IMG/VR virus record: IMGVR_UViG_3300042452_000558
Span: 1-27,111 of that record
Origin: a virus
Length of the DNA stretch: 27,111 bases
Strand: one strand, 5' to 3'
Under the pieces are notes generated by a model, which saw only the letters and a program-made list of their open reading frames with translations, was not told the origin of the DNA and ran no database searches. The position numbers and the translations under genes are program-made. Position 1 is the stretch's first letter. Each line of letters opens with the position of its first letter. Positions 8,262 through 27,111 of this stretch are shown here, in pieces.

Positions 8262-8895
8262 GCACGTAGAAACAGAGACGCTTATACCCTACGCCCGCAA
8301 TGCGAAAAAGCATGACGCAGAGCAAGTGGCTAAAATTGCGGGAAGCATCCGGGAATTTGGATTTAACAACCCAGTGCTTATTGATCCAGAAAACGGGATC
8401 ATCGCGGGACATGGCAGAGTGATGGCCGCTCAAAAGCTTGGGCTAACGCAAGTGCCGTGCCTTCGCTTGAGCCACCTAACAGAAATACAAAAGCGCGCCT
8501 ATATCATTGCCGACAACAAGTTGGCAGAAATTGGCGGAGGATGGGACGAAGAAATGCTGAAAGTCGAGGCCATCGACCTTTGCGCAGAAGGATTTGACCT
8601 TGAGGCGTTGGGATTTACAGACGCGGAATCGGATGACTTGCTCAACGGCGAGAAGATTATAGAGGAAGCGGAGGAAAAAATAGAGCACGAGCAGTCTTTG
8701 CAGTTAGAGCCAGAAATGGAATACGTAGTGATCCTCGCTAAAACATTGGAAGAATGGGACGAGATGGTGCAGTGGTTTCAGCTAAAAAAAGTGCGGCGCG
8801 GCGGATACAAACAGGGAAGCGCGTTTGATGCCATAGGCACGGAAAGAGTCCTGACATTTGAAAGGGTCAAAAATGCTTATAGCCATACCAAGTAA
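8236..8895 (+). CDS. ParB/Srx-superfamily protein of the DNA-modification-associated type
   Basis: A 219-residue protein. Residues 13-78 form a ParB N-terminal domain: LIPYARNAKKHDAEQVAKIA, then NNPVLIDPENGIIAGHGRVM with the GHGR motif at 58-61. IIADNKLAEIGGGWD follows at 90-104, typical of ParB-like proteins beside phage methylases and base-modification enzymes. A separate C-terminal domain (about 160-215: EYVVILAKTLEEWDEMVQWF, then IGTERVLTFERV) is also seen in that phage group. These proteins are not plasmid partition factors; roles as nucleases or specificity factors have been proposed. The gene is clearly lower in G+C than its neighbours and overlaps the next gene by 23 bases. Confidence 0.8.
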   Translation: MKTTQTQIEHVETETLIPYARNAKKHDAEQVAKIAGSIREFGFNNPVLIDPENGIIAGHGRVMAAQKLGLTQVPCLRLSHLTEIQKRAYIIADNKLAEIGGGWDEEMLKVEAIDLCAEGFDLEALGFTDAESDDLLNGEKIIEEAEEKIEHEQSLQLEPEMEYVVILAKTLEEWDEMVQWFQLKKVRRGGYKQGSAFDAIGTERVLTFERVKNAYSHTK

Positions 8896-9589
8896 AGGGC
8901 GCGCGGGATTAACGACCTCGGACAAAGTGTTGCCTACAGCAACGATGTTTGTTCCAGAAGGCGAGCTGCATCAATACACAAAGACCAACAAGCACGTTGT
9001 CGGCATTCCCAATGAAGTAAGGGGAATTACTAAAACCAGAAACTGGATACTCAAGAACACCAAAGAGTCGCGGGTGGTCTTTGTTGATGATGACGTAAAA
9101 GTGTGTGGCTATACAAAGCTGTATCGAGAAAACGCAAAACAGAAGAAACTCAAGAGCGAGTCGGTATGGCGCGCGGAGTTTCACAAGCTGTTTGATATGA
9201 CCGAACAACTTGGGTGGAAAGTGTGGGGCCTTAAAACGGAAAGCGCGCTGCGGAGCGTTTACCCATACAAGCCGTTCAATTTTCGCAGCTACGTCACGGC
9301 TTCTTGCATGGGAATAATCAACGACGGAGCAATGTATTTTGACGAGGATTTCCCGGTCAAAGAGGATTACGAAATTTGCTTACGGCACGTAAAAATGCAT
9401 GGTGGCATTTTGGCCGCGCGGCATTTGCATTGGCAAAATGAACATTGGGGAACAGACGGAGGATGCAAAGACTATCGGACAATGACGATGGAAGCGGAGT
9501 GCATCAAAAAGCTGGTTGAGAAATATCCGGGGATGGTGCGGCAGATAACGCGCGGAGGGTGCGCTTATTCTATTGAGTTGAATCTGTAA
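8873..9589 (+). CDS. TET-associated-type glycosyltransferase (TAGT-like)
   Basis: A 238-residue GT-A fold enzyme. It begins MLIAIPSKGRAGLTTSDKVL, has RNWILKNTKESRVVFVDDDV (metal-binding DDD at 72-74), MYFDEDFPVKEDYEICLRHV, and HWQNEHWGTDGG. This pattern matches the TAGT family that Iyer, Aravind and co-workers described beside TET/JBP oxygenases in phages, where it is predicted to glycosylate modified bases. Low G+C (25 of 60 at 9001-9060 against 36 of 60 at 10081-10140 in the terminase) suggests the pair was acquired together. ATG 8873 is preferred over in-frame TTG 8858. The substrate is unknown: DNA base, or less likely protein. Confidence 0.78.
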   Translation: MLIAIPSKGRAGLTTSDKVLPTATMFVPEGELHQYTKTNKHVVGIPNEVRGITKTRNWILKNTKESRVVFVDDDVKVCGYTKLYRENAKQKKLKSESVWRAEFHKLFDMTEQLGWKVWGLKTESALRSVYPYKPFNFRSYVTASCMGIINDGAMYFDEDFPVKEDYEICLRHVKMHGGILAARHLHWQNEHWGTDGGCKDYRTMTMEAECIKKLVEKYPGMVRQITRGGCAYSIELNL

Positions 9590-16852: not shown

Positions 16853-17704
16853 ATGGCTAACGTATTCGATTCCGGGCTGGTGGTCGCCACCATCTCGCAA
16901 CAGGTTCAGACAGTCTTGGCTAATCGCCTCGCTCCTCTGCGCCTTTTCACCACTGACTTCTCGAACGAAGTCAAGAAAGCTAAGGACACCATTCAGGTGC
17001 CCATCGTCTCGGCAACCAGCGCCACCGCTGTTAACCCGACCAACTTTGAACCCGGCTCCGATGTGACCGTTGGCAAGGCCACCGTCACCTTGGATCATGT
17101 GGCTCAGTTCTTCGGCATCAGCCAGGCGGATCTCGCCCTCGGTCATCGCCTTGAGAACCTCATCAAGATCAACGTGGACGCTCTGGCCGACAAGCTCTGG
17201 AGCATCGCCATTACGCCCGTCACGACCGTGAACTTCGGCGCGGCGACTGTCACCACGACCACGATCACTCCGGGCAGCGGCCACTTGGCCTCGCTGTGGA
17301 GCGCGATCAGCAAATCCACCAGCAAGGGCTTGGTCGTTACTCCGTCGATCTACTCGGCGCTCATCCCGACCAACGCGGACTTCCTGCCGCTTCAAAACGG
17401 TGCTTATGGTTTCGATCAGGGCATCTACTACGCGAACAGCTTCAGCGGTGCGGTCACGGGCCTCGACGGCTTCGCCTGCTCGCGCGAAGCGGTGTGCGTT
17501 GCCTCGGCCAAGCCGATGATCGACCCTGCGGTTTCCTCGCAGTTCCAGATCAGCGACCAAGTTGTCACCCTCGATCAGTTGGGCCTCTCGGTCTACTGGA
17601 ACGTGTGGGGCTCGACCAACAACCGTCAGGTCAACGCTTCCATCGAGCTTATGTTCGGCGCGGCCCCCGGCCTCACGAGCAACACGATGGCGCTGATTAT
17701 CTAG
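16853..17704 (+). CDS. Major capsid protein (HK97 fold)
   Basis: This 283-residue protein is the only gene in the expected major-head slot, after the protease-scaffold. Its opening, SQQVQTVLANRLAPLRLFTT, the strand/loop TIQVPIVSATSATAVNPTNF, and TVTLDHVAQFFGISQADLAL fit the N-arm, E-loop and spine helix of HK97-type capsids. LVVTPSIYSALIPTN and GAYGFDQGIYYANSFSG fit the A-domain. No separate decoration protein lies beside it. The leader (16809-16852) is almost free of G and has no Shine-Dalgarno, consistent with an unstructured, efficiently translated mRNA. Strong hairpins follow the gene. Confidence 0.82.
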   Translation: MANVFDSGLVVATISQQVQTVLANRLAPLRLFTTDFSNEVKKAKDTIQVPIVSATSATAVNPTNFEPGSDVTVGKATVTLDHVAQFFGISQADLALGHRLENLIKINVDALADKLWSIAITPVTTVNFGAATVTTTTITPGSGHLASLWSAISKSTSKGLVVTPSIYSALIPTNADFLPLQNGAYGFDQGIYYANSFSGAVTGLDGFACSREAVCVASAKPMIDPAVSSQFQISDQVVTLDQLGLSVYWNVWGSTNNRQVNASIELMFGAAPGLTSNTMALII

Positions 17705-17719
17705 TTCTGTGTGTTCATC

Positions 17720-17749
17720 CTCCCGGCGGATTGAGTGGACCGCCGGGAG
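17720..17749 (+). terminator. Strong hairpin after the capsid gene
   Basis: CTCCCGGCGG (17720-17729) pairs perfectly over 10 bp with CCGCCGGGAG (17740-17749). Only TTTCACTT follows, so it may protect the capsid mRNA 3' end as well as slow transcription. Confidence 0.65.
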
Positions 17750-17758
17750 TTTCACTTA

Positions 17759-17770
17759 GGTCTTCGGACC
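17759..17770 (+). other. UUCG tetraloop mini-hairpin
   Basis: GGTC-TTCG-GACC, the extra-stable C(UUCG)G loop, lies between the other two hairpins after the capsid gene and may be an RNA stability element. Confidence 0.5.
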
Positions 17771-17773
17771 AAG

Positions 17774-17809
17774 GGGTCACGGTTCCACTCGCCGTGGCCC
17801 TTCCTTTTT
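17774..17809 (+). terminator. Rho-independent terminator before the glycosyltransferase genes
   Basis: GGGTCACGG (17774-17782) pairs with CCGTGGCCC (17792-17800) through one T-G wobble around a 9-base loop, followed by TTCCTTTTT. The next gene begins only eight bases later, so readthrough or attenuation must feed it. Confidence 0.75.
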
Positions 17810-17816
17810 GTAGCAA

Positions 17817-19532
17817 GTGGCGAAAATACATCTCGGCATAATCGCGGGCAACGAAGAGGCCATGATTGGCCGATTCTTGGACTCGTTTCAGCCTCACGTT
17901 GATTCTGTTTCGGTTGTCCGCGCCATCGGAAACCAATCGCCAGACCGAACGCTCGACATCGCCAAAGAGCGCGGCTGCATCGTGGGTGAGTATTGGAACG
18001 CGCCCGACCGCCAATGGGAGCACGTCGACAACTTCGCCGCCGCCCGCAACCAGACCTTTGCCCTGGCCCCCGAAGGCACGGACTTCCTCATGTGGGCCGA
18101 TTGCGATGATTTGCTAGGTGACAGTGGCGCGGCGGTGCTTCGACTCCTTAGAGACGGCAAAGATCCGCAAGCAGATGTGATCTATGCGCCGTATGTGACT
18201 AACGCGGCAGGAAGCTACGCGCGCCGGGTGCGTTTGCTCAAAGCCTCGGCATACGAGAAATGGATTAACGCGGTCCACGAGGACATTGAGCACAAGCCAG
18301 AAAGCAAGCTCATCTGGTCAAATGAATTGCAAGTGATTCATATGCCCGTGAACAACAAGCGGACAAGCGTAGTCCGCAACCGCCGCATCCTTGAAGCCAT
18401 TCCCGAAACCGAGCGCACGGGCCGCGAGTGGTGGTTCCTTTTCCGCGAATGCGAAGTGCAGCAAGACATTCCCAAGGCGCTGGAGGCCGCTGTTATTGCC
18501 ACAGGGCGCGACGATCTGGGCGACGAGGAAAAGTTCTGTGCGTATCAAACCATTGGCCGCTGGCTCAAAGACGTGGACGAAGCCGAGCGCCCCTTGCTTG
18601 AAGCCGTGCGCCTTATGCCGCATCGGCGCGAAGGTTATGCCGAGCTTGCCAAGGTTCACCTAGCTCGCGGCAGCGCAAGCAAAGCCTTGGCCTACGTCAA
18701 CGCGATGGAAGCGCAGCCCATGCCCAACGAACCTAGCTGGACGCATGACGCCTCACTTTTCGGATGGCGGGCGCATGATTTGAAATGCTTGGCCCTAGCA
18801 AAGAACGGCAAGCCCGAAGACGCCAACCGCATCCGCAAAGCATGGCACAAGCGCAACAAGGTGCGCCTTGCCATCGGCCACCCGACTTGTCGCCCAGAAA
18901 AAGCCATTGCGGTGCGGGAAATGGCTTTCTCACGGGCCGCAAAGCCCGACCAGTTGGCGTATTACTTTGGCGTGAACGAAGGCGATAATGACGTTGTGGA
19001 CGCGCTAAAGCATTACCCGCACGCCGTTAGCAAGGCCGTGCCCGAAGGACACGCCTCTGCCGTAGCCAATTACAATGCCGCCGCCCGTGCTGCCGCCGAA
19101 TCGGGGGCGCGCATCTTTGTCATGTTGCAGGATGATCTTTATCCGCCGCACGGATTCGATGAAATGATTGTTCGCGCCTTTGAGGGGCACATGGATTCGC
19201 CAGCCGTGCTGCACTTGCACGATGGATTCCGCAAAGAGGGCGACCCGATCATGGTTGCGATGTGCTACAACTGGCGCTGGTGGCTAGGACGGGAGTGGTT
19301 GCTCTGCCCGGAATACGACGGCTATTGGTCCGATACCGAGTATTCTTTCCGCGCCTACCGCGACACCAAGGTCATCAACGGGCGGCACATCCAACTGTAT
19401 CACGACCACCCGGTGTTCACGGGCGCGGCATCTGACGAGGAATATCAGCGGCAGCAAAACCCGGTTGCCAATGCGCGCGGGCGCGAAATCTTTGTGCGTC
19501 GCAACCCGGACGCCGTAGCGAAAGGCTGGTAA
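17817..19532 (+). CDS. Two-domain glycosyltransferase with central TPR-like region
   Basis: A 571-residue protein. Domain 1 (about 3-180) is a family-2 GT-A glycosyltransferase: IHLGIIAGNEEAMIGRFLDS, RNQTFALAPEGTDFLMWADC, with DCDD at 95-98. Residues about 215-345 form TPR-like helical repeats (LLEAVRLMPHRREGYAELAK). Domain 2 (about 375-571) has another GT-A pattern, ARIFVMLQDDLYPPHGFDEM (QDD at 438-440), with YDGYWSDTEYSFRAY and HIQLYHDHPVF. It lies between the capsid and connector genes, behind a terminator, like a cargo gene. Capsid or virion glycosylation is the simplest idea; modified DNA or host surface sugars are alternatives. The GTG start lacks both start-site words. Confidence 0.75.
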   Translation: MAKIHLGIIAGNEEAMIGRFLDSFQPHVDSVSVVRAIGNQSPDRTLDIAKERGCIVGEYWNAPDRQWEHVDNFAAARNQTFALAPEGTDFLMWADCDDLLGDSGAAVLRLLRDGKDPQADVIYAPYVTNAAGSYARRVRLLKASAYEKWINAVHEDIEHKPESKLIWSNELQVIHMPVNNKRTSVVRNRRILEAIPETERTGREWWFLFRECEVQQDIPKALEAAVIATGRDDLGDEEKFCAYQTIGRWLKDVDEAERPLLEAVRLMPHRREGYAELAKVHLARGSASKALAYVNAMEAQPMPNEPSWTHDASLFGWRAHDLKCLALAKNGKPEDANRIRKAWHKRNKVRLAIGHPTCRPEKAIAVREMAFSRAAKPDQLAYYFGVNEGDNDVVDALKHYPHAVSKAVPEGHASAVANYNAAARAAAESGARIFVMLQDDLYPPHGFDEMIVRAFEGHMDSPAVLHLHDGFRKEGDPIMVAMCYNWRWWLGREWLLCPEYDGYWSDTEYSFRAYRDTKVINGRHIQLYHDHPVFTGAASDEEYQRQQNPVANARGREIFVRRNPDAVAKGW

Positions 19533-20158
19533 TGGATAAGCCGAAAGCCTTGGCGAATATGCCCGACGAGCGGCAGGCCAAACTTTTTGAGGTGCTGATT
19601 CCCACCATGCCTGGGCGGGAGTTTATGCTGTCGCAACTGATGTCTGTGCTTGAGCCGCAGTTTGCGCGCTGGCCTCAAGCTACTTTCACCGCCGATTGGG
19701 GTGAGGGAAGTATAGGGGCCAAGCGGCAACGCATGATTGAGACCAGCAAGGCCGAGTATGTGGCCTTTGTGGATGACGATGACATGGTTTCGCCAGACTA
19801 CCTCGACCGAATCATGCCCTGTCTACAAAGCCACCCGGACTGTGTCGGTATTTCCATGCACGTCACGATGGACGGGCGCGATTGGCATCCATCGCCCATC
19901 TTTCGCCATTCCCTCCGCTTTCGAGAAAACTTCCAGTGGCACGGCCAAGATCGCACCCCACACCACCTTTGCCCACTGAAACGAGAAATCGCCGTCCGCT
20001 CGCGGTTTCCCGATCTGATGTGGGGCGAGGATTACAGTTTTGCTTTGGGGCTACTAACCAACCTCCAGACTGAGGAATGGAGCGGCGATGAACCGCTTTA
20101 TTTTTACAACTACGTCTCAAAGAAGGGCGACCCGCCTACACCTAGCCAACACCTTTGA
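19532..20158 (+). CDS. Small family-2 glycosyltransferase
   Basis: A 208-residue single-domain GT-A enzyme. FEVLIPTMPGREFMLSQLMS opens the nucleotide-sugar fold, GSIGAKRQRMIETSKAEYVA precedes the metal-binding DDDD (81-84) in FVDDDDMVSPDYL, and SRFPDLMWGEDYSFALGLL near residue 165 supplies the acidic acceptor-site motif. It is short for the family and probably lacks acceptor-specific additions. It overlaps the previous stop by one base (TAATG) and so forms a pair with it. Its TGA stop lies in the TTTGACA word that leads the next structural gene. Confidence 0.78.
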   Translation: MDKPKALANMPDERQAKLFEVLIPTMPGREFMLSQLMSVLEPQFARWPQATFTADWGEGSIGAKRQRMIETSKAEYVAFVDDDDMVSPDYLDRIMPCLQSHPDCVGISMHVTMDGRDWHPSPIFRHSLRFRENFQWHGQDRTPHHLCPLKREIAVRSRFPDLMWGEDYSFALGLLTNLQTEEWSGDEPLYFYNYVSKKGDPPTPSQHL

Positions 20159-20160
20159 CA
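20154..20160 (+). promoter_or_regulatory. TTTGACA start-site word, connector gene
   Basis: Contains the stop TGA of the glycosyltransferase gene and ends 13 bases before GTG 20174. No evident hairpin at this copy. Confidence 0.55.
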
Positions 20161-20173
20161 GTAGCCTTCAAAC

Positions 20174-20491
20174 GTGAACCAAGCGGCCCTCACATCGTTT
20201 GCCACCGCAATGGCAAAAAGCATTCGCGACCTTTACGGCTCCACCGTAACCATCGGCGGAACCAATTACACGGCGGCGGTTGCTACTGGCGAGCCAGCCT
20301 TTGACCTCGAGTCTGGCGGCTTCCGCAGCCCGGTGAGCTTTGTTGTCCGCGTGCTGAAGCAGGACATGGCAACCGCCCCGGTTCCCAAAACTGCCGTGGT
20401 CATCAACAGCAAAAACTACCGAGTCATGTCGGTGCGCCAGAATTTTAGCGCCGTGGCGCAAGAGTGGATTATTGAGGTTGAAACTCCATGA
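20174..20491 (+). CDS. Head-tail connector protein (putative)
   Basis: A 105-residue protein with mostly beta character (STVTIGGTNYTAAVATGEPA, then VSFVVRVLKQDM, then TAVVINSKNYRVMSVRQNFS). The size and the position after the capsid resemble lambda gpFII-type attachment proteins. It is followed by two genes joined through 4-base overlaps that precede the tail tube. Position is the main support. Confidence 0.55.
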   Translation: MNQAALTSFATAMAKSIRDLYGSTVTIGGTNYTAAVATGEPAFDLESGGFRSPVSFVVRVLKQDMATAPVPKTAVVINSKNYRVMSVRQNFSAVAQEWIIEVETP

Positions 20492-25406: not shown

Positions 25407-27111
25407 ATGATTAGCTGGACAATCACAGTTCCGCCGACTGTTGGAACGGCGCAGGGGACGGACAGTGCAAGCCAGAGCGTTTCCTACACATACACAAACA
25501 TTGAATTTTCAGACTCCGAGCAAACACTTGCTGGCACTGATTTTAGCGGGGCTTTTTCTAGTTCTTCCGCTGGCGCGGGCGGATCTGCAATTTTAGCAAA
25601 TGGCAATATTACCGCATCGGGATCAGGCGCTTTTGGATTCTCAAGAACTTTAGCCGATCAGCCTGTAACAACTGAAACTGGATCTACTGGCGGCAGTGAA
25701 TCTGGTGCCACAACAACGAGTTGGAACGGCAGCATTAGTGTGAATCCCCCACTAACCTACGAGGAGGAAGCAGACGAATCGGTCAAATACACTTCCACCA
25801 CGCAGACCTCGGCAAAACAAACAACACAGCAAAGCAACTTCACTGTTGCAGTAAATACTTTGGCGACTCGTCCTGTTTCGTGGGTCAGCGGGACAACGCG
25901 CACCACGGAGATCAATTCCGAGACATTAACAATCGCAACAACCACAACGACACAAGCGGCAACCACGGGCATAAATTCAACGCAAGCGAGCGGGACGCAA
26001 ACTGTTCTGGTTCCAGCCACGCAAGCGTCAAACTCTTCGGCCATTGTCCTTACCACTTCAAGCGACACCGTGACGGCGTATGGTTATCGCTCAAGCGGCA
26101 CAACCTACACGGGGCCAGACATTACTCCTACAATCGCGGGCGCCACGACAACCACAACTTTTGGCCCTACAAATACTGGTTTCCGTCACACTGCCACGGT
26201 TGCCATTGTCGGGGCCAATGAAGTTCTTTGGGAGCTAACCACCAACGGAACGGGAATGTTGTCCGATCTGTGCGCTAGTCATGGGCAGGGGACGCACACA
26301 ATCCTGCCAAAAATCACACGCTTGCAGCCAGTGCAGGGCAATCCTCCTTATTTAGATAGTTACGAAACCACCCTGACTACAGCCACAACCAGCACGACTA
26401 GCAGCACACAAACCACGCTGGCAAATGGCAACAGCTTTCCGGCACACACCGCATCGGTGCAGATCAACAAGGCAAGAACGACAACAACGCAAATAACCAA
26501 AACGCTTTCGACTTACGAAGGGCCAATAGAAAGCACAACGGTTTGGACAACAGCCACAACGATGTTGTCTTTAGACGGGCAAGATGTGTTTTCCACAATA
26601 CCCCAAACCAGCGAAATAACTTTCAGCAAGGCATACGGCGGGCAGACTCTAGAAGAAGGATTTGCGAGCGGCTTCACAACAGAGCCGTGGACGTTTTTGA
26701 AGATGACGCAGGCCGTGATGGGGCAAGGTCAAAGCGCCTACCAATCCAACTACCTATCCGGGCGAGCCGCGCCGAATAACCTGACGGCAGTTGGTCAAAA
26801 CCTGCGGGCCGTTGGCTTAACTTTTACAGCGGACACTGCCTTGGCGCAGCAGACGGCCATTGCCCCCTTCCCGACAAGCTGGACTTATACCCAAGGCCAA
26901 ACGAGCGGAACCATTTCTCTTGGAGGCGGAGGGGCCAGCCGCACCACGCAAGACGAAAGCACTTTCGGAACCACTAGCGGGGCGTGGCAGATTGAAGGCG
27001 GAACAACGCATGAATTTGTCGTTGCTGCTCAAATTGCGGTTGGCGGCAAGCCGCCCAAGGGAAACAACATTTCTTTGCTCTATCCGCCCGGTGTTTATTT
27101 TACATCCAACT
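25407..27111 (+). CDS. Large Thr/Ser-rich tail protein, 3' end outside window
   Basis: The frame is open from ATG 25407 to the window end, at least 568 residues. It begins MISWTITVPPTVGTAQGTDS. The sequence is rich in Thr, Ser, Gly and Ala, with runs such as TIATTTTTQAATTGINSTQ and TTLTTATTSTTSSTQTTLAN, few Lys and almost no Cys. No signal peptide or enzyme motif was recognised. It is last in a tail operon, so a tail fibre, tip or receptor-contact protein is likely. The Thr-rich repeats could be stalk segments and possible O-glycosylation targets for the phage glycosyltransferases; that link is speculative. Confidence 0.65.
   Translation, partial: MISWTITVPPTVGTAQGTDSASQSVSYTYTNIEFSDSEQTLAGTDFSGAFSSSSAGAGGSAILANGNITASGSGAFGFSRTLADQPVTTETGSTGGSESGATTTSWNGSISVNPPLTYEEEADESVKYTSTTQTSAKQTTQQSNFTVAVNTLATRPVSWVSGTTRTTEINSETLTIATTTTTQAATTGINSTQASGTQTVLVPATQASNSSAIVLTTSSDTVTAYGYRSSGTTYTGPDITPTIAGATTTTTFGPTNTGFRHTATVAIVGANEVLWELTTNGTGMLSDLCASHGQGTHTILPKITRLQPVQGNPPYLDSYETTLTTATTSTTSSTQTTLANGNSFPAHTASVQINKARTTTTQITKTLSTYEGPIESTTVWTTATTMLSLDGQDVFSTIPQTSEITFSKAYGGQTLEEGFASGFTTEPWTFLKMTQAVMGQGQSAYQSNYLSGRAAPNNLTAVGQNLRAVGLTFTADTALAQQTAIAPFPTSWTYTQGQTSGTISLGGGGASRTTQDESTFGTTSGAWQIEGGTTHEFVVAAQIAVGGKPPKGNNISLLYPPGVYFTSN

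Follow-up and report, generated by a model that had tools for sequence, protein, structure and literature searches.

Two glycosyltransferase genes linked to a phage major capsid gene, a putative virion-glycosylation cassette behind a conserved three-hairpin RNA

Between its major capsid protein (MCP) gene and its connector gene, the phage sequence analysed here (an IMG/VR virus record of 27,111 nt from an uncultured phage, hereafter the window) carries two glycosyltransferase genes, GT1 and GT2. Judging from sequence and predicted structure, we infer both the activity of these enzymes and their acceptor, and assign a probability of about 0.7 to the reading that they form a virion-glycosylation cassette whose main acceptor would be the MCP encoded just upstream. 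Capsid glycosylation is the best reading because the MCP and GT1 genes are linked and because the relatives of GT1 are protein glycosyltransferases. The late genes run in the order terminase (GpA type), lambda-type portal, ClpP-type protease, MCP, GT1, GT2, connector and tail, and the features considered below are as follows.

8858-9589: TAGT-family protein (TET-associated glycosyltransferase; Pfam TAGT, 6e-14)
16853..17704, + strand: MCP, HK97-type major head protein family (phrog_283), the proposed acceptor
17720..17749, + strand: hairpin H1, 10-bp stem, loop 17730-17739 with GAGTGG at 17733-17738 (conserved, with compensatory changes)
17759..17770, + strand: hairpin H2, GGTC-UUCG-GACC (compensatory changes at 2/4 pairs)
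17772..17802, + strand: hairpin H3, intrinsic terminator of 11-12 bp followed by CCTTTTT (terminator scan, pairing)
17817..19532, + strand: GT1, 571 aa, GTG start; GT-A, TPR repeat and second GT-A (ORF, fold model, profiles)
19532..20158, + strand: GT2, 208 aa, ATG start; single GT-A domain, accessory (ORF, Pfam, PHROG)
20154..20160, + strand: TTTGACA motif, overlapping the GT2 stop codon (conservation)
20174..20491, + strand: head-tail connector/head-closure protein, where the structural order resumes (Phage_attach, phrog_82)

The original prediction, that two glycosyltransferase genes interrupt a lambda-like head-to-tail order, was borne out: the two open reading frames lie exactly where it placed them, and family matches recovered the portal, the ClpP-type protease and the major head protein on one side and a head-closure/attachment protein on the other. 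Even the word "inserted" holds in a comparative sense, as the MCP gene leads directly to the connector in the sister MCP clade (see below). The window MCP matches the major head protein family phrog_283 at E = 0.0014, with the best MCP family member reaching 5.8e-19, and is under purifying selection (median dN/dS 0.133); both connector matches are weak (Pfam Phage_attach 0.0012; phrog_82 Hc1 0.007). Comparison of the MCP profile with solved structures gave no useful match and an AlphaFold model of the protein was discarded for its low confidence (pLDDT 38), so acceptor sites could not be mapped on the MCP surface.

The predicted model of GT1 (pLDDT 81) contains a GT-A domain (residues 1 to ~180), a TPR-like helical repeat (~182-347) and a further GT-A domain (~349-571), in agreement with the earlier description of two GT-A domains around a TPR-like centre. 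Structural comparison of the domains, which had been suggested as a check, placed the N-terminal half nearest to the peptide S-glycosyltransferases SunS and ThuS (Z 20-22 over residues 1-288; SunS Z 21.8 over 1-280), enzymes with a protein or peptide acceptor that share only ~18% identity with GT1 and have no second GT-A domain. The C-terminal 220 residues also adopt a GT-A fold, matching solved structures that include WrtF and GalNAc-T2 (Z 14-17). In profile comparisons the solved proteins closest to GT1 are GmaR (6.7e-12, the best), SunS (1.6e-9) and the TPRs of O-GlcNAc transferase (OGT), and GT1 is thus sequence-related to GmaR/SunS-type proteins; it scores far below the curated cut-off of the SunS equivalogue (TIGR04195; 19.5 vs 350 bits) and is not counted as a SunS member. 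Listeria GmaR, a flagellin O-GlcNAc transferase, shares with GT1 an N-terminal GT-A domain followed by TPRs, those of GmaR having been proposed to hold the substrate (PMC9638930), and its target, as we propose for that of GT1 too, is an abundant surface protein that self-assembles; it differs in having an antirepressor domain where GT1 has its second GT-A, and in that GT1 is phage-borne beside an MCP gene. On these profile and fold comparisons, the closest characterised relatives of GT1 are protein glycosyltransferases, acting on flagellin (GmaR) or peptides (SunS/ThuS). No full-length relative of GT1 was found among 50,697 deposited phage records.

The first domain of GT1 has, besides the GT-A fold, the Asp-rich nucleotide-sugar motif MWADCDD of GT-A, GT2-like enzymes, in which D95, D97 and D98 are invariant. 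In the second GT-A domain D440 is the sole invariant residue of the acidic motif, the adjacent position often being Ser; the activity of this domain is therefore less certain, and it may work differently or weakly. GT2, which overlaps GT1 by one base (TAATG), matches Pfam Glycos_transf_2 (8e-7) and the phage glycosyltransferase family phrog_14775 (4e-29), and likewise shows the GT-A, GT2-like pattern, its DDDD (D81-D84) and GED (E166/D167) motifs being invariant. Purifying selection acts on both genes (median dN/dS 0.087 for GT1 and 0.080 for GT2). GT2 is present in 19 of the 29 close relatives with enough sequence, leaving about one-third without it.

The survey of related phages that had been proposed was run with the MCP as the only query, blind to the glycosyltransferases, and returned 48 contigs. 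Counting was limited to those with an MCP more than 60% identical to the query and at least 300 nt of downstream sequence (n = 37), and in all 37 GT1 lies 106-117 nt downstream of the MCP gene. These contigs fall into two sets, one with portals 83-100% identical to that of the window and one with portals at 25-26% and without a detectable protease homologue; in about half of the 37, the MCP (75-79%) and GT1 (70-84%) are retained even though portal, terminase and protease are either absent or unrelated. As both genes are kept in both sets, they travel as a unit while the rest of the head operon is replaced. Inside the family the alleles of GT1 have been reshuffled: the window GT1 groups with those of L002 and L003-L005, and the window MCP and portal are nearest to those of L010 and L012-L014 (MCP 97-99%, GT1 73%). 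Tight matching of enzyme and acceptor is therefore not needed. Readthrough of the MCP stop codon into GT1 was rejected, since the length of the gap varies out of frame.

A sister clade, made up of MCPs related to that of L100 and sharing 48-67% identity with the window protein, was retrieved separately. GT1 is absent from all 68 of its contigs with at least 1 kb of downstream sequence, where the MCP gene is followed by one plain terminator and then the connector. An MCP tree with 96 rows requires only two changes of glycosyltransferase state, one of them being the long-branch L099. This presence/absence contrast between MCP clades makes capsid glycosylation directly testable. L100 itself, assigned to a Burkholderiaceae metagenome-assembled genome (MAG; host hints here come from MAG bins alone), encodes an MCP at 72% and GT1 at 56% identity, two extra ORFs and then GT2 at 64%. 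Ser/Thr positions diagnostic of glycosyltransferase-bearing MCPs outnumber the reverse (11 vs 2; 8 vs 3 against the nearest clade), a suggestive result that we set aside as support because it is confounded by shared ancestry. Several such positions fall in a Ser/Thr-rich stretch, ITPVTTVNFGAATVTTTTITPGSGH, at MCP residues 117-150 (~17201-17302), a candidate glycosylation region by sequence that is subject to the same confounding.

The linkage extends to distant homologues. Of the 460 viral contigs matched by a GT1 profile, 80 were kept for analysis, and among these a 294-317-aa ORF lies directly upstream of GT1 in 35 of the 38 homologues at 32-35% identity, the other three starting too near a contig end. 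A PHROG scan of 25 MCP representatives (22 from distant loci, plus L046, L100 and the window) mostly matched "major head protein" families, phrog_283/267 in 14 cases and phrog_1005/1650 in nine, and the two GT1-linked MCP families have no detectable sequence similarity to each other. With two other MCPs as queries, GT1 was found within 1.4 kb in 59/59 contigs with room for it. MCP-GT1 linkage is thus obligate in three independent settings, and hundreds of environmental phages have a distinct GT-TPR-GT architecture tied to their capsid genes. Some distant loci carry additional functions. In a betaproteobacterial MAG contig (L103:7669-12149), the MCP-adjacent GT1 homologue is accompanied by further glycosyltransferase-like genes, and the gap also holds sugar-phosphate nucleotidyltransferase-like and HAD phosphatase-like genes, making a phage-made nucleotide sugar possible for this cassette; in two other loci (L314:5407-7611 and L101:347-2800) a Methyltransf_24 domain is fused C-terminally to GT1 homologues and perhaps O-methylates the glycan.

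Adjacency is evidence of co-inheritance and not proof of acceptor identity, and other targets have to be weighed. The original prediction had named the capsid or the Thr-rich tail protein; linkage in three settings, presence and absence on the MCP tree and the protein-glycosyltransferase fold favour the capsid, all indirectly, and leave the tail protein as a possible second acceptor. That the tail protein is the main acceptor, with the glycosyltransferase genes adjoining the MCP gene for the timing of their expression, seems to us unlikely. The window tail protein (25407-27110) is indeed 32% Ser+Thr, nine other glycosyltransferase-bearing relatives have a 538-729-aa ORF with 27-36% Ser+Thr at the corresponding position (tblastn found no homologue of the window protein in relatives, although the composition is kept), and in mycobacteriophages tail proteins are glycosylated besides capsids (PMC12363180). 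However, tails and connectors are swapped freely while the MCP and GT1 remain together, the linked neighbours of distant GT1s are mostly MCPs, and sister phages lacking the glycosyltransferases have Ser/Thr-rich tail proteins too (20-28%). As the latter are only slightly less rich, the tail protein was dropped as a discriminator.

Phage-borne glycosyltransferases often act on O-antigen, and the family names returned by the libraries are generic, so that GT1 and GT2 could instead modify a host surface glycan or another host molecule, in receptor masking or superinfection exclusion, like phage serotype-conversion genes. We consider this about as improbable as a tail acceptor, given that no flippase or membrane glucosyltransferase of the kind found in O-antigen gtr cassettes was called in the MCP-connector gap and no membrane partner is adjacent, that GT1 is closest to protein glycosyltransferases in both fold and sequence, and that the genes sit in the head operon beside the MCP across unrelated phages. 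Far less probable still is joint action of the cassette with the upstream TAGT enzyme on phage DNA bases. The TAGT gene, located between a ParB-domain protein gene and terL, suggests that DNA base glycosylation takes place, but neither GT1 nor GT2 is of the TAGT family, and GT1 has TPRs and resembles protein glycosyltransferases. The earlier count of four GT-A domains holds as a count (four GT-A-type domains in 11.3 kb, including TAGT); pooling the TAGT protein with the capsid enzymes does not, because it is a member of a DNA-modification family, its gene adjoins terL, and it showed no link to the MCP-GT1 module.

The hairpins noticed ahead of GT1 proved to be more than a terminator. H3 has the make-up of an intrinsic terminator, with a T run after a GC-rich hairpin, and its loop sequence CCACTC (17785-17790) is complementary to GAGTGG in the H1 loop. 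The MCP-GT1 gap folds more stably than its shuffles (z = -3.5), and an alignment of 31 gaps has 99.4% of its cells paired, with 25 double-change cells against 4.1 in shuffles; when the partners were slid against each other as a control, pairing fell to 40-54%. The terminator scan alone was near background (20 found vs 13.4 expected), so the significance rests on conservation and covariation. In these alignments the three hairpins form one conserved, covarying RNA.

As the H1 and H3 loops are invariant within the family, loop covariation had to come from outside it. L100, unseen by the covariance model, was recovered by it (E = 1.8e-5) and carries the loops GAGTGAG/CTCACTC. Other GT1 leaders have the pairs AGCGAG/CTCGCT, GTGATTGG/CCAATCAC, GATCGG/CCGATC, GCTTGG/CCAAGC, GTGCGG/CCGCAC, GATTGG/CCAATC and GTGAGT/ACTCAC, and a pair with a bulged H3 in L250 (GGTTTGG/CCAAACC) was missed by the script and found by eye; the complementary loops before GT1 thus come in ten or more different sequences. 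When 53 loci were scanned on both strands, 18 loop pairs were found against 1.3 expected, 17 of them at GT1. With one representative per group, the script found pairs in 10/21 groups against 0.36 expected (2/1,677 in control segments), and 11/21 with L250 added; the groups were set by us from similarity and gap type and their number is therefore approximate. The remaining ten GT1-bearing groups have no loop complementarity, which means that the RNA is not essential. No Rfam family matched the three-hairpin RNA above its gathering score, and a literature search on kissing-loop terminators at capsid genes returned nothing relevant.

Whether the element belongs to GT1 or to the MCP can be judged from its position. 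In the window clade it lies 14-16 nt past the MCP stop, and with H3 acting as a terminator it could be the stabilised 3' end of the abundant capsid mRNA, the loop pairing protecting that transcript independently of GT1. We find this explanation possible but rather unlikely, since in three loci with an extra ORF after the MCP (L226, L286 and L314) the element stays at the GT1 start, 294-439 nt from the MCP, the MCP of L314 is followed by a plain terminator of its own, and relatives lacking the glycosyltransferases carry a plain terminator in its place. Across the groups with paired loops, H3 ends 3-16 nt (in L229, 29 nt) upstream of the start codon of GT1. The element is thus better read as a GT1 leader than as an MCP 3' end and, because it sits at the GT1 start codon, probably acts as a GT1 attenuator in which the kissing contact would matter. 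We regard it as an even bet that this is a new regulatory RNA in which H1 and the terminator form kissing loops, serving as the dedicated leader of a widespread phage capsid-glycosyltransferase family and keeping enzyme output low or signal-gated relative to capsid proteins that share little or no sequence similarity among themselves. In known intrinsic-terminator attenuators, too, the regulated gene is separated from its leader by a terminator hairpin; they differ from the present case, where two hairpin loops of the same RNA are predicted to pair with a third hairpin between them. If true, the leader would add a conserved kissing-loop attenuator to the few known RNA control devices.

On the capsid reading, late transcription would yield MCP in bulk, and H3 would end most transcripts, with the three-hairpin RNA stiffened or gated by H1-H3 loop pairing. 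GT1 and GT2 would then be made from read-through transcripts alone and kept at catalytic levels. The TPRs of GT1 would dock the MCP while its first GT-A domain added the first sugar to Ser/Thr, like GmaR and SunS-like enzymes, and the glycan would be extended by the second GT-A domain, plus GT2 where present; here we infer the acceptor residue, the identity of the sugar and the order of transfer.

Glycosylated virions are documented for few phages, chiefly mycobacteriophages, in which the modification shields the particles from antibodies. The sequences analysed here, of which one contig with the whole module was binned to Burkholderiaceae, suggest that sugar-coated capsids are common beyond actinobacteriophages. 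Phages Che8, Corndog and Myrna encode glycosyltransferases and have glycosylated capsid and tail proteins (Freeman et al. 2023, as described in PMC12363180 and PMC11256854); our system resembles theirs in having phage-encoded enzymes. In Che8, however, the glycosyltransferase genes are placed at the right genome end and not beside the MCP. With Che8 gp110, essential for capsid glycosylation in that phage, neither GT1 nor GT2 shares similarity detectable by BLAST or by profile, the single-sequence profile comparison being a weak one. A closer parallel in a different lineage is Omegavirus LittleE (cluster J), whose genes 15-21 (GT-kinase-GT-GT-...-GT) place four glycosyltransferases and a kinase in the same gap between MCP and connector. 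Its gp15, the first glycosyltransferase in the gap, is a GT2 homologue (29%, 2e-14); tblastn of LittleE found no GT1-type double enzyme, and the kinase-domain gene and the actinobacterial host set it apart.

At the downstream border of the cassette, TTTGACA is conserved 19-20 nt ahead of the connector start in glycosyltransferase-bearing and -lacking relatives alike, and a second lineage has CTTTGACTCG at its position. The TTTGACA leader proposed for the resuming structural genes therefore stands as a conserved motif but not as a recognisable promoter: a consensus scan called none there, the motif has no -10 at promoter spacing, and any normally spaced -10 would fall inside the connector gene, so this role was rejected.

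Finally, nine of the 48 contigs retrieved with the MCP query end within the MCP gene or no more than 135 nt past it (L057, L062, L077, L078, L083, L086, L094, L096 and L097), as if assemblies break at the junction between a conserved capsid gene and variable alleles of GT1. One of these, L083, is the same 37,098-b contig as L036; because it has the MCP at one end and GT1 at the opposite end, it probably represents an entire genome of ~37 kb that is circularly permuted, with the cut in the hairpin region.
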